Of a stretch of DNA of 64,000 nucleotides, positions 5,632 through 63,651 are shown piece by piece. The notes under the pieces are model-generated. The model made no database searches. It saw only the letters and a list, made by a program, of their open reading frames with translations, and was not told the origin of the DNA. A program made the translations under genes and the position numbers. Source of the DNA: Halogranum gelatinilyticum (GTDB lineage: Archaea > Halobacteriota > Halobacteria > Halobacteriales > Haloferacaceae); NCBI RefSeq assembly GCF_900103715.1, contig NZ_FNHL01000002.1:248001-312000 (forward strand), given 5' to 3'. The stretch's first letter is position 1. The number at the start of each line of letters is the position of its first letter.

Positions 5632-6080
5632 CAGGTGTAGGCGGGGACCGACTCGCGGTCGGTCTCTGTCGTCGAGATGTCGAGGTCGACACGGAGTGCG
5701 TCGATGGCCTCCTGGGGTTCCGTCTCCGAGTCGAAGACGCGGGTGAACCCCATCCGCTCGAAGCGACGGCGGGTCTCGGTCCACTCGTCCTGTCCGACGG
5801 CGAGGTTGCCGCCGATGTAGGTCGGGAGGTCGAGATCAGCCGCCGCGAGCTGCTCGTGGAAGCCGCGGCAGTCCTGCTCGGCGTGGCCGTAGAGCGAGGA
5901 GACCAGTACCGCGTCCGCGTCGTGGGCCGTCGCTGCGTCGACGAACTCCGCTTGGGACGTCTGGACGCCGAGGTTGACAACGTCGAACCCCGCCGCCGAA
6001 AGAGCCTGGTCGAGTATGGTGATTCCGACGACGTGTGCGTCGGAGCCGATCACGCCAAGGATGACTGTTCGCGGCATCAT
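5631..6080 (-). CDS. mamA: methylaspartate (glutamate) mutase, sigma (B12-binding) subunit
   Basis: A 149-residue cobalamin-binding Rossmann-type subunit. The base-off/His-on motif D-x-H-x-x-G is at residues 14-19 (SDAHVVG), followed by an SSLYG loop and a GGNLAVG loop that cradle the nucleotide tail. It pairs with MamB, encoded directly downstream with a one-base overlap. Two adjacent ATGs occur at 6080 and 6077. An in-frame ATG about 90 nt farther upstream would add a basic, tyrosine-rich extension encoded by AT-rich promoter DNA, so it is rejected. First gene of the five-gene minus-strand operon. Confidence 0.95.
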   Translation of the reverse strand: MMPRTVILGVIGSDAHVVGITILDQALSAAGFDVVNLGVQTSQAEFVDAATAHDADAVLVSSLYGHAEQDCRGFHEQLAAADLDLPTYIGGNLAVGQDEWTETRRRFERMGFTRVFDSETEPQEAIDALRVDLDISTTETDRESVPAYT

Positions 6081-6227
6081 CGTGAAGGACCGTGAAGGAA
6101 CAGATAAAGTTAATGATTTATAATGATAATATTCTTTAAGGTGTTTTACCAACCGGTGTGTCATATCCACACAAACTACATGATTAATGGGGTAGATTTT
6201 TCCCTCCTATCCACGACGGCGTAAGCC
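6081..6227. promoter_or_regulatory. divergent promoter region between mamA operon and mct
   Basis: A 147-bp AT-rich spacer in otherwise GC-rich DNA, separating the start codons of mamA (leftward) and mct (rightward). Read toward mamA it contains TTATAAATC and CTTTATC; the latter lies about 27 nt from the mamA ATG, right for a short-leader haloarchaeal transcript. Toward mct no clear TATA element is seen. A shared control region for the two halves of one pathway is an inference from layout. Confidence 0.55.
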
Positions 6228-7472
6228 ATGGCCGCGCTCAGCGACCTTCGGGTGCTCGACCTGACACAGGTGCTCGCCGGACCGTACTGCACGATGCTCC
6301 TCGCGGACCTCGGCGCGGACGTGGTAAAGGTCGAGCGTCCCGGCGGCGACCTCATCCGGTCGAATCCACCGTTCGTCCGTCCTTCGGAAGAGCCTGAGTC
6401 CGACGGCTCGTCGCCGTCGGAGCAGCCCTACGGTGGCTACTTCCAGAGCGTCAACCGCGGCAAGCGCTCCATCGAACTCGACCTCGGCAGCGACGAGGGG
6501 CGCGCGGACTTCCTCTCGCTCGTCGAGGCGGCCGACGTCGTCGTCGAGAACTACCGCGCGGGGACGATGGAGCGGTTCGACCTCGGCTACGAGACGCTCC
6601 GCGAACACAACCCCCAGTTGGTCTACAGCGCGATCCGTGGCTTCGGCGACCCCCGCACGGGCGAGACCCACCGCCAGGGCCAGCCCTCGTTCGACCTCGT
6701 GGCACAGGCACTCGGCGGCGTGATGGAGATAACTGGCGAGGAAGACGGCCCACCGACGAAGGTCGGTCCCGGCATCGGTGACCTGTTCACCGCGACGCTC
6801 AACGCCGTCGGCATCCTCGCCGCAGTCCACCACCGCGACCGGACGGGAGAAGGCCAGTTCGTCGACACCGGGATGTACGACAGCATCGTCAGCCTCTGTG
6901 AGCGGACGGTCTACCAGTACTCCTACACCGGCGACCCGCCGACGCGACAGGGCAACTCCCATCCGACACTCTTCCCCTACGACTCCTTCGAGACGGCCGA
7001 CGGCCACGTCGTCATCGCCGCCTTCGGCGACAACCACTGGGAGGCACTCTGTCGGGCGATGGACCGGCCGGACCTCGCCGCCGACTACCCGGACGCGGCG
7101 AGTCGCCGCCGGAACCGCGAGCCACTGGGCGACGAGATCGCCGACTGGACGGCGAGCCGGACGAGCGACGAGGTCGTCGACGCGCTCGTCGGTGAGGTCC
7201 CCTGCGAACGGGTCCAAAGCGTCGAAGACGTCTTCGCCGACTCGCACATCCGCGACCGCGAGATGCTCGTGGAGGTCGACCAGCCCGGCACGGACGAGCG
7301 GGTGACCATCGCTGGCCAGCCCATCAAGATGACGGCGACGCCCAGCCAACCGGGCCGCCGCGCGCCACTGCTTGACGAACACCACGAGTCCGTGTTCAGC
7401 GATTGGGTGGCACAGCCCTCCGGTAGACGGACCGACACCGCGAGGGACGCAACGGACGCGGCCGACGACTGA
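6228..7472 (+). CDS. mct: succinyl-CoA:mesaconate CoA-transferase (class III, CaiB/BaiF)
   Basis: A 414-residue class III CoA-transferase. In the methylaspartate cycle it moves CoA from succinyl-CoA to mesaconate. Seen: the N-terminal family opening VLDLTQVLAGPYCTMLLADLGADVVKVE, a VEPGG-like PGGD loop, NRGKRSIELDL, and the segment GQPSFDLVAQALGG whose Asp (D156) aligns with the catalytic aspartate. Two oddities: a Ser/Glu/Pro-rich insert at about residues 51-68 and an acidic hydrophilic tail after residue 395. Divergent from mamA. Substrate is inferred from that context. Confidence 0.9.
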   Translation: MAALSDLRVLDLTQVLAGPYCTMLLADLGADVVKVERPGGDLIRSNPPFVRPSEEPESDGSSPSEQPYGGYFQSVNRGKRSIELDLGSDEGRADFLSLVEAADVVVENYRAGTMERFDLGYETLREHNPQLVYSAIRGFGDPRTGETHRQGQPSFDLVAQALGGVMEITGEEDGPPTKVGPGIGDLFTATLNAVGILAAVHHRDRTGEGQFVDTGMYDSIVSLCERTVYQYSYTGDPPTRQGNSHPTLFPYDSFETADGHVVIAAFGDNHWEALCRAMDRPDLAADYPDAASRRRNREPLGDEIADWTASRTSDEVVDALVGEVPCERVQSVEDVFADSHIRDREMLVEVDQPGTDERVTIAGQPIKMTATPSQPGRRAPLLDEHHESVFSDWVAQPSGRRTDTARDATDAADD

Positions 7473-60677: not shown

Positions 60678-61691
60678 GTGAACCCGAGTCGCGTCGACTC
60701 CATCGTCGACTTGACCTACGGGCTGTTGATCGCGATTTCGGTCGGGCTGATCGTCGTCGCCGGAAACGCCATCGGGCTGGCGTTCGGGTTCGGGGTGCTG
60801 GTCTCCTACGTCCTCCATGTCGTCTGGAAGATGGCCCGGTTCGACCCGAACTGGATGACGACGGCCGTCAAGGAGACTGTCGAGGAGACCGTCAACGAGA
60901 CCGTCGAAAAGACGGTTGGTGAGACGGTGGAGAAGACGGTCGACGAGAAAGTCGGAGAGACGGTGGAGAAAACCGTCGGCGAGACGGTAGAGAAGACAGT
61001 CGACGAGAAGGTCGGCGAGACGGTCGAAAAGACTGTCGGCGAGACAGTCGAGAAAACGGTCGGAGAGACGGTGGAGAAAACCGTCGGCGAGACGGTAGAG
61101 AAGACAGTCGACGAGAAGGTCGGCGAGACGGTGGAGAAAACCGTCGGCGAGACCGTCGAAGAGACGGTAGAGAAGACAGTCGACGAAAAGGTTGGAGAGA
61201 CAGTCGAGAAAACGGTCGGCGAAACTGTCGAAGAGACGGTGGAGAAGACAGTTGACGAGAAGGTCGGCGAAACGGTGGAGAAAACAGTCGGCGAGACTGT
61301 CGAGAAGACCGTCGGAGAGACGGTGGAGAAGACTGTCGACGAGAAGGTCGGCGAGACGGTGGAGAAGACAGTTGGCGAGACGGTGGAGAAGACCGTCGAA
61401 GAGAAGGTCGGCGAGACGGTGGAGAAGACTGTCGAAGAGAAGGTCGACGAGACGGTGGAGAAGACTGTGGGAGAAAAAGTCGACGAGACTGTCGAGAAGA
61501 CCGTCGAAGAGAAGGTCGACGAAACGGTCGAGCGGACCCTGGAAGAACAGAAAGCGGCCGAGCGTGCGGACGGTGACGCGGACGAGGCTGCCGACGACGA
61601 AGCCAAAGACAACGAGGCCGACGACGACGAGACCGAGGACAACGAAGCCAAAGACAACGGAACCGACGACGACGAGACTGAGGATCGATGA
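60678..61691 (+). CDS. membrane-anchored V-x-x-[TK] tetrad-repeat protein, partner of PiT
   Basis: 337 residues from GTG at 60678. Two closely spaced membrane helices (about 10-32 and 33-52: YGLLIAISVGLIVVAGNAIG and GLAFGFGVLVSYVLHVVW), then from residue 64 an unbroken run of 56 tetrads such as VGET, VEKT, VDEK and VEEK (bases 60867-61538), and an acidic Glu/Asp/Ala tail. Codons differ between tetrads, so the run is old. Valine every four residues in a predicted helix would make a slowly rotating hydrophobic stripe. No family recognised. The TGA stop overlaps the pit ATG (ATGA). Confidence 0.85.
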   Translation: MNPSRVDSIVDLTYGLLIAISVGLIVVAGNAIGLAFGFGVLVSYVLHVVWKMARFDPNWMTTAVKETVEETVNETVEKTVGETVEKTVDEKVGETVEKTVGETVEKTVDEKVGETVEKTVGETVEKTVGETVEKTVGETVEKTVDEKVGETVEKTVGETVEETVEKTVDEKVGETVEKTVGETVEETVEKTVDEKVGETVEKTVGETVEKTVGETVEKTVDEKVGETVEKTVGETVEKTVEEKVGETVEKTVEEKVDETVEKTVGEKVDETVEKTVEEKVDETVERTLEEQKAAERADGDADEAADDEAKDNEADDDETEDNEAKDNGTDDDETEDR

Positions 61692-62866
61692 GCAGCGTAC
61701 TCCTCGTCGCTGGCGTCGTCGTCGCGATGTTCGTCGCCTACAACATCGGCGGCTCGACCACGGGACCGGCGTTCGGGCCTGCCGTCGGTGCCGACGCGAT
61801 CTCGAAGCCCGTCGCCGCGGGGCTGATGGGTGTGTTCTTCTTCATCGGTGCCTGGACGCTCGGGCGAAACGTGGTGACGAAACTCGGCAGTGAACTGGTC
61901 GTCGACACCGGGGTCTTCACGCTCGAAGCTTCCATCGCGGTGCTCTTCTTCATCGGCATCGCCCTGTTGGTCGGCAACGTCTTCGGCGTCCCGGCCTCGA
62001 CCTCGATGACCGCGGTGGGTGCGATCGCCGGTCTCGGGCTGGCCGGTGGCGTGCTGGACTTCGCTGTGATGGGAGAGATCGTCGTCTGGTGGGTCGTCTC
62101 GCCCATCATCGGCTTTTGGGTCTCGCTGATCATCGGCCGGTACTTCTACGCTCGGCTGAACGAGATGGTCGCGATGGAGCGGAGTACGGGCCCGCTGTTC
62201 GACATCGACCGCTCGGGGCTGATTCCCATCCCGCGGGTCCACCGGACGACCAACCGCCGGGAGCTGGGCGGGACCTTCACGGTCGTCGCCATCGGCTGTC
62301 TGATGGCCTTCTCCTCGGGCACTTCGAACATCGCCAACGCGGTCGCACCGCTGGTCGGCAGCGGCGAACTGGCGATGAACCCGGCCATCATCTTCGGCGG
62401 CGTCGCCGTCACCATCGGCGCGTTCACCATCGCCCGACGAACCCTGGAGACGATGGGCAGCGACATCACGGAACTCCCCCTGACTGCCGCCATCGTCGTC
62501 GCGTCGGTCTCCTCGACGCTGGTGGTCTTCCTCTCGGCACTCGGCATCCCCGCGAGCTTCGTCATCATCGCGACGATGTCGATTGTCGGGCTGGGCTGGG
62601 GCCGTGCGACCCGACCGCTGACCGCGCCCGAAGTCGTCACCGGCGACGGCGGCGCACGGGTCACGGTCGACGCGCTGGCGGCCGACGAGGAGGGTGAACC
62701 GCTCCCCCCGATCGGTGCCGAGGACGTCGACGACATCCCCAGTCCGGGGGCACTGTTCAACCCCGTGACGACCGCCCGCGTCGTCCTGATGCAGAACGTC
62801 GTGCCTGCCATCGCGACGGTTGGCTCCTATCTCGCCTTCCGGTTCGTCCCGATCTTCGGGTTCTGA
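61688..62866 (+). CDS. pit: inorganic phosphate transporter, PiT family
   Basis: 392 residues with about 10 membrane helices. PiT halves each hold a GxxxG/STTGP-like signature: AYNIGGSTTGPAFG near residue 18 and MAFSSGTSNIANAVAPLVGSG near 206, plus ASTSMTAVGAIAG. Na+- or H+-coupled phosphate uptake. Translation is coupled to the tetrad-repeat gene by a 4-bp overlap. Many PiT genes sit next to a DUF47 PhoU-like gene; here the repeat protein holds that place. Confidence 0.93.
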   Translation: MSSVLLVAGVVVAMFVAYNIGGSTTGPAFGPAVGADAISKPVAAGLMGVFFFIGAWTLGRNVVTKLGSELVVDTGVFTLEASIAVLFFIGIALLVGNVFGVPASTSMTAVGAIAGLGLAGGVLDFAVMGEIVVWWVVSPIIGFWVSLIIGRYFYARLNEMVAMERSTGPLFDIDRSGLIPIPRVHRTTNRRELGGTFTVVAIGCLMAFSSGTSNIANAVAPLVGSGELAMNPAIIFGGVAVTIGAFTIARRTLETMGSDITELPLTAAIVVASVSSTLVVFLSALGIPASFVIIATMSIVGLGWGRATRPLTAPEVVTGDGGARVTVDALAADEEGEPLPPIGAEDVDDIPSPGALFNPVTTARVVLMQNVVPAIATVGSYLAFRFVPIFGF

Positions 62867-62940
62867 GCCGAGGCGACCCGCCTCACTCGGTGGCCGACGG
62901 ACCCCCACAGCTTTCTGTCCGACTCCACCAACCACCAGCC

Positions 62941-63651
62941 ATGAGACGTGCGCGTATCCAGACCCCCGAGGGACCACGTGAAGGCGAATACCGCGACGGC
63001 GTCGTCGTCACCGACGATGGCGAGTACGTCGTCGGCGACGACGGCCCGCTGCTCGCGCCGTGTGAGCCGTCGGCACTCTACTGCGTCGGCCGGAACTACG
63101 CGGCCACGTTGGAACAGATGGAGTACGAGCGGCCGGAGGAACCGGACTTCTTCATCAAGCCTCCCGCATCCGTTATCGCCCACGAGGAACCAATCCCGTA
63201 CCCCGAGTTCACCGAGGAACTCACCTACGCGGGCGAGCTGGTCGCCGTCATCGACGACACCTGCCACGACTTCTCGCCGGAGGAGGCTCCCGACCATATC
63301 CGTGGCTACACGATAATGAACGACGTCGACGCGCTGGACCAACAGGGCCGCACGGCCAGAAAGGCGTTCGACGGCTCGGCTCCGCTCGGCCCGTGGCTGG
63401 AGACGGACCTCGACCCGCGAAGCATCGATATGCACACCGACGTCAGCGGCGAGCGTCGCCAAGAGGCCAACACCGAGTTGATGCTGTTCGGCCCGTACGA
63501 GGTCGTCTCGTATCTCTCGAAGCGCTTTACCTTTCGGCCGGGCGACGCCATCGCGTTCGGTAGTCCGGCGAATCCGGGCACCGTCGAACCCGGCGACGTG
63601 ATCGAGATTACCTACGATGGAGTCGGGACGTTGCGGAACGAAGTCGTCTAG
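62941..63651 (+). CDS. fumarylacetoacetate hydrolase-family protein
   Basis: 236 residues, FAH fold. Family blocks: YCVGRNYAATLEQM, DFFIKPPASVIAHEEPIPYPEF, the metal-ligand region LTYAGELVAVIDD and DALDQQGRTARKAFDGSAPLGPWLETD. Acts on 2-oxo-acid enol or acylpyruvate-type substrates; exact one unknown. ATG at 62941 (MRRARIQTPEG); 17 codons upstream lack family character. Confidence 0.9.
   Translation: MRRARIQTPEGPREGEYRDGVVVTDDGEYVVGDDGPLLAPCEPSALYCVGRNYAATLEQMEYERPEEPDFFIKPPASVIAHEEPIPYPEFTEELTYAGELVAVIDDTCHDFSPEEAPDHIRGYTIMNDVDALDQQGRTARKAFDGSAPLGPWLETDLDPRSIDMHTDVSGERRQEANTELMLFGPYEVVSYLSKRFTFRPGDAIAFGSPANPGTVEPGDVIEITYDGVGTLRNEVV

Follow-up and report, generated by a model that had tools for sequence, protein, structure and literature searches.

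A pair of co-directional genes in Halogranum gelatinilyticum raises the question of what a membrane protein with valine at almost every fourth residue through 57 consecutive repeats is doing beside a permease labelled at first as a phosphate transporter. The pair lies at positions 60678-62866 of the window, that is, the 64,000-nt stretch of contig NZ_FNHL01000002.1 (positions 248,001 to 312,000) that was analysed, and this span covers the tetrad gene and the permease gene together. The tetrad gene (60678-61691, plus strand) starts with GTG and encodes a product of 337 aa. It begins with a two-helix membrane hairpin containing the segment HxxWKMxRFDPxWMT (residues 1-63; 60678-60866), recognized by its conserved columns and by helices in an AF2 model. 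This is followed by the tetrad array V-[EGD]-[EK]-[TK] (residues 64-291; 60867-61550), in which the translation shows 57 unbroken tetrads with 56 Val and one Leu at position 1, E, G or D at position 2, E or K at position 3 and T or K at position 4, the commonest units being VEKT (20), VGET (17) and VDEK (6). At the DNA level the array is a tandem repeat that matches at just 69-73%. The remaining 46 residues (292-337; 61551-61688) form an acidic tail, which is highly variable among relatives and modelled with low confidence, and is probably disordered; the net charge of the final 50 residues is −21. The stop codon of the tetrad gene shares ATGA with the start of the permease gene (61688-62866, plus strand; gap −4). 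The ORF translation thus agrees with the anatomy given in a preliminary description of this locus, namely a two-helix anchor, Val at every fourth site, an acidic tail and a stop overlapping the permease start. A 723-aa minus-strand ORF (60806-62977) spans both genes and looks like a high-GC shadow frame.

The preliminary description had called for a search of haloarchaea for similar tetrad proteins and their neighbours, and this search found the family to be widespread and a permease to be commonly adjacent. Matches to the hairpin query were obtained in 127 of the 171 genomes of the window genome's family, while a hairpin profile matched in 266 of 393 haloarchaeal genomes and in 70 of the 87 genera of the order. 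In 110 relatives, the hairpin columns D, D, G, F, G, H, W, K, M, R, P, W and M were invariant, giving the consensus D-x3-D-x2-YG ... AFGxG ... HxxWKMxRFDPxWMT. Outside the order, a profile search of a phylum sample of 247 found no hairpin, and no phage record was found to encode it. The hairpin belonged to no family of Pfam or NCBIfam, the best Pfam match for the hairpin alone being VirB3 at E 0.084, below cut-off, and it had no match among PDB sequences. Those plasmid records that carry an annotation for the tetrad protein call it a ‘hypothetical protein’, and full-text searches directed at the motifs, at tetrad proteins of haloarchaea and at coiled coils with tetrads returned no published description. 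The tetrad protein is therefore a previously undescribed haloarchaeal family and not an oddity of one genome.

Matches of the repeat itself in Pfam, NCBIfam and PDB were set aside as compositional. DUF445 and other helical low-complexity models matched the repeat region weakly; DUF445 (PF04286) scored 31.2 bits against a gathering score of 33.8, in the repeat region only and with the hairpin unmatched, and was rejected as composition-driven. CdrL (PF24252 middle region) reached 28.8 bits for the whole protein against a gathering score of 27, with no single stretch passing and with the match lying at residues 71-125, within the repeat, and is probably compositional as well. All NCBIfam matches of the full-length protein were below their cut-offs, and no PhoU-type domain was matched by Pfam up to E 0.1. 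DUF47/PhoU-like Pit accessories are likewise encoded by small genes adjoining a PiT-family permease, but they are soluble PhoU-like proteins that have no membrane hairpin.

Weak hits of the family search led to a second family, whose hairpin is a different one (TQFHIELVYG ... AAFEGGLVxGYLLRIWEKMSIYER) and precedes tetrads including VEEQ, VDER and VAEE; this family also has lag-4 periodicity and has no match in Pfam. The profiles of the two families aligned with an hhalign probability of 90% (E 1.5e-6), and a hairpin-only profile of the first family matched a gene of the second (G178). This suggests that the two families are remotely related; searches outside the order returned no match for either of them.

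To describe the repeat beyond the window protein, the spacing of hydrophobic residues was compared in 167 non-identical relatives. Hydrophobic pairs occurred at lag 4 in 89% of cases compared with 21% in shuffled sequences, which shows that the register did not arise by chance, while only 5-9% were found at lags 3, 7 and 11. The misfit of the repeat to heptads and hendecads, pointed out at the outset, is thus borne out, with a period of 4.0. Coiled-coil periodicities are limited to about 3.33 to 3.9, the most extreme known being 3.8, and 4.0 falls outside the accessible range (PMC4786415, Hartmann et al.); because the period of the arm exceeds the limit of about 3.9, the arm is not an ordinary coiled coil. 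It resembles the right-handed coiled coils (hendecad 3.67, pentadecad 3.75, YadA 3.8) in that a repeat above 3.63 gives a right-handed stripe, but differs from them in having a period of exactly 4.0 in up to 60-odd units. At 100 degrees per residue, the Val stripe drifts by 40 degrees per tetrad and completes a full circle per 36 residues. Over 224 residues, the hydrophobic moment came to 0.53 at 90 degrees but 0.03 at 100 degrees, and over 36 residues to 0.53 and 0.04, respectively. A long straight membrane-surface helix with one greasy face was rejected, since the 100-degree moment vanishes over 36 residues.

The AF2 model of the window protein contained hairpin helices at residues 3-28 and 30-54 and long helices that reach residue 301, beyond which the tail is unstructured; pLDDT values were 77-84 over residues 11-50 and mostly below 50 from residue 306. 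Mean pLDDT was 61.5 for this protein and 66.0 for the Halobacterium salinarum homologue, which has the same plan, and pTM was about 0.3, a modest confidence at which the modelled fold of the arm is tentative; Foldseek of the H. salinarum model against the PDB found nothing significant. By the positive-inside rule (R5; K51, R54), both ends of the hairpin would be cytosolic. Sequences rich in Val, Thr and Gly have a low helix propensity. The arm might be a disordered polyampholyte with no defined fold, serving as an entropic bristle or solubility brush by crowding the cytosolic face or by preventing aggregation of the hairpin and permease in 4 M KCl, as the acidic, low-complexity, Gly-rich units, the low pLDDT in mid-array and the freely varying length would allow. 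Such a brush, however, needs no exact Val register, yet two families and 167 distinct sequences retain one and avoid lags 3, 7 and 11, and AF2 calls helix throughout the arm, so that we regard this reading as doubtful, though still to be reckoned with. Also tentative is a bolder proposal, in which the array would be a true structure of exactly four residues per repeat, for example helices wrapped with a strong right-handed twist or an overwound superhelix that KCl at molar concentration stabilises, and would act as a length-adjustable cytosolic scaffold assembling a new two-component class of anion permease.

In order to evaluate the linkage to the permease, neighbours were tallied by tblastn with the permease rather than from picked ORFs, because ORF picking misses the true frames in high-GC loci. 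Among 80 named loci, the permease lay 3′ on the same strand in 42 and divergently upstream in 18, and it adjoined the hairpin gene in 32 of the 40 scorable named groups, the other 8 being without linkage. Arithmetic from four PHO4 genes in 3.8 Mb puts chance adjacency at well under 1%. In H. salinarum (L185), the homologue is encoded 33 bp upstream of its permease. In the window genome's own family, 44 loci were co-directional, 14 divergent and 41 unlinked, and many of the unlinked ones fall in one genus (g21, including Halorubrum species). The permease tree contained a 100/100 clade of 57 rows, with 26 co-directional and 18 divergent partners, which takes in nearly all linked permeases except a Natrialbaceae clade. 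On this tree the arrangement switches several times (least forced 5), and the linkage has therefore outlived rearrangement. The proposed coupling to a PHO4-family permease is thus conserved across genera and through changes of gene order. Absence beside pit in relatives had been named in advance as counting against the coupling; in most genera the permease is adjacent, whereas the tetrad gene lies away from any permease in Halorubrum, Halobellus, Halohasta and some Natrinema. Hairpin genomes without linkage still encode a permease at 64-72% identity elsewhere, while in genomes without a hairpin the best permease is mostly 50-63% identical, with exceptions in G170 (67%), G205 (65%) and G021, where permeases of 62-67% occur without a detected hairpin. 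The three other PHO4 genes of the window genome have no hairpin-tetrad neighbour.

The second family adjoins a PHO4 permease in 15 of 22 loci, usually just downstream of it, and the permeases beside it belong to two different clades; loci L203 (3811-4407), L213, L214 and L224, for instance, lie mostly directly downstream of other PHO4 permeases. The most forceful argument for cooperation between hairpin and permease is that two remotely related families adjoin one type of transporter in opposite gene orders, and it is strongly suggested by the gene neighbourhoods that the tetrad gene and the permease work together. The tetrad protein could alternatively be a general membrane or curvature scaffold, with the permease a frequent neighbour by inherited gene order and not a partner. 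This would account for the unlinked genes of Halorubrum and others and for the recurrence nearby of genes for the universal stress protein (Usp) and of further genes in Natrialbaceae. We nevertheless find it improbable, given that the permease neighbours the hairpin gene in most groups, co-directionally as well as divergently, while the genes that come next in recurrence are mostly restricted to one family, that the second family is independently linked to PHO4 permeases, and that presence of the hairpin tracks one permease clade.

In Natrialbaceae the permease is clustered with a Usp gene and with a tetrad gene or two, and here Usp genes lie between a pair of permeases and the tetrad genes. 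Genes for Usp are repeatedly found next to PHO4 permeases of haloarchaea, as at L192 (6963-7391), L147 (6706-7134), L183 (8134-8559) and L198 (8500-9021). In Haloterrigena sp. H1, two divergent tetrad genes (L183, 5067-5537 on the minus and 5989-6468 on the plus strand) sit within a single cluster that comprises three permeases and two Usp genes.

What the permease carries was then judged from its signatures. The window permease matched Pfam PHO4 (PF01384) with 142.8 bits (1.7e-41) against a cut-off of 33.7, and its sole curated NCBIfam match was CysP (NF053884; 159 bits, 1.4e-46), below the equivalog cut-off of 400. A remote match to the Thermotoga phosphate transporter (PiT) 6l85 (9.3e-14) aligned SIGANDVANS with NIGGSTTGPA and SHGANDVANA with SSGTSNIANA. 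In the two signatures of the window permease, NIGGSTTGPAFG and SSGTSNIANAVAP, the GANDVANA aspartates are replaced by T and N, and they are absent in every aligned relative. Three residues on which Pi transport critically depends in PiT2 (PMC3126765), D28, D506 and H502, correspond to T, N and S in the window permease. B. subtilis CysP has Gly and Asn in place of the signature aspartates, and CysP-type members that have lost these are not regarded as phosphate transporters (PMC5840216). The CysP sulfate permease, the best curated model for the neighbour, thus likewise lacks the signature aspartates, with Gly/Asn in B. subtilis CysP and Thr/Asn in the window permease. Because the aspartates are lost and the pattern is close to the Gly/Asn of CysP, the phosphate label given to this locus at first is unsupported; the permease is probably not a phosphate importer, and sulfate or another oxyanion is the more likely substrate. 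Sulfur-assimilation genes were not observed as recurrent neighbours of the permease, and the cited literature reports no hairpin-tetrad partner of CysP. All four PHO4-family proteins of the window genome (L197, L198, L199 and 61688-62866) are without the GANDVANA aspartates and do not resemble classical PiT phosphate importers.

It could be argued from this last observation that loss of the aspartates is the haloarchaeal norm, in which case the permease would be a true phosphate symporter and the small protein a phosphate-uptake subunit, as the PF01384 match and the remote similarity to 6l85 would permit. However, three residues critical in PiT2 are replaced and the closest curated model, though far below its cut-off, is CysP, and the symporter reading appears quite unlikely.

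Whether the array is under selection was assessed at the codon level. In the 56 Val codons of the window array, bases 1 and 2 are invariant, while 34% of the third bases differ from the commonest one; if rates were equal, the probability that none of the 112 first and second sites changed would be about 7e-21. The array is therefore old enough for its silent sites to have been scrambled, yet it is held at the coding level. The same register is found across the order in divergent repeats (VEKT, VTEE, VSKE and VAEE). Species with identical hairpins have arm lengths tens of residues apart, such as 253/291, 205/169 and 309/253 residues, although the shortest arms may include assembly errors. Free variation in length together with a fixed register points to selection on the register, with copy number tolerated, and these comparisons thus indicate that selection holds the 4.0-residue register and not the array length. 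The preliminary description had read the synonymous variation as a sign that the run is maintained, which holds for the register but not for the length; it had also taken a repeat number varying freely between strains as evidence against itself, and the number does vary freely between close species. That the array is a neutral DNA repeat produced by slippage, with function only in the hairpin of a small membrane protein, would fit the copy-number changes between sister species and the apparent frameshifts in two arrays, but is very improbable in view of the fixed Val codons and of a register shared by divergent tetrads.

Some arrays (L083, L077) end in apparently out-of-frame tetrad sequence, reflecting a frameshift or an assembly error, and runs of N, that is, assembly gaps, occur in the arrays of L015, L026, L130 and L149. 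In several genera (L029, L040, L048, L061 and L115), an extra conserved motif, approximately VNxRVDRRPR, follows or interrupts the tetrads; it is missing from the window protein and may be a docking segment.

Taken together, we favour, with a probability of roughly 55%, the reading that the gene pair encodes a membrane module of haloarchaea, made up of a CysP-like anion permease of the PHO4 superfamily and of the small protein as its accessory subunit, which bears a length-tolerant cytosolic arm. The hairpin would be embedded in the membrane with its two ends on the inside, and at the cytosolic face the invariant HxxWKMxRFDPxWM segment would contact the permease. The tetrad region would extend from there as a long, mostly helical, acidic cytosolic arm, round which the hydrophobic stripe would wind right-handed, if the helix is straight, with one turn per about 36 residues. 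Since the stripe winds round the helix, no one side would be greasy along the full arm length, while each piece of 10-20 residues would be amphipathic. Such an arm could present a repetitive, length-tolerant and multivalent surface that associates with itself or rests against the membrane or the permease, and that clusters, stabilises or modulates the permease. Of the accessory or scaffold system for phosphate transport envisaged in the preliminary description, the coupling to a PHO4 permease is supported by gene linkage, while phosphate is disfavoured by the lost aspartates.

These findings bring to light an undescribed protein family that is present in about two thirds of the sampled haloarchaeal genomes and is tied to a single clade of anion permeases, which are probably mislabelled as phosphate transporters. 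They also raise the structural question of what is formed by a valine every 4.0 residues, a period that coiled-coil theory excludes.
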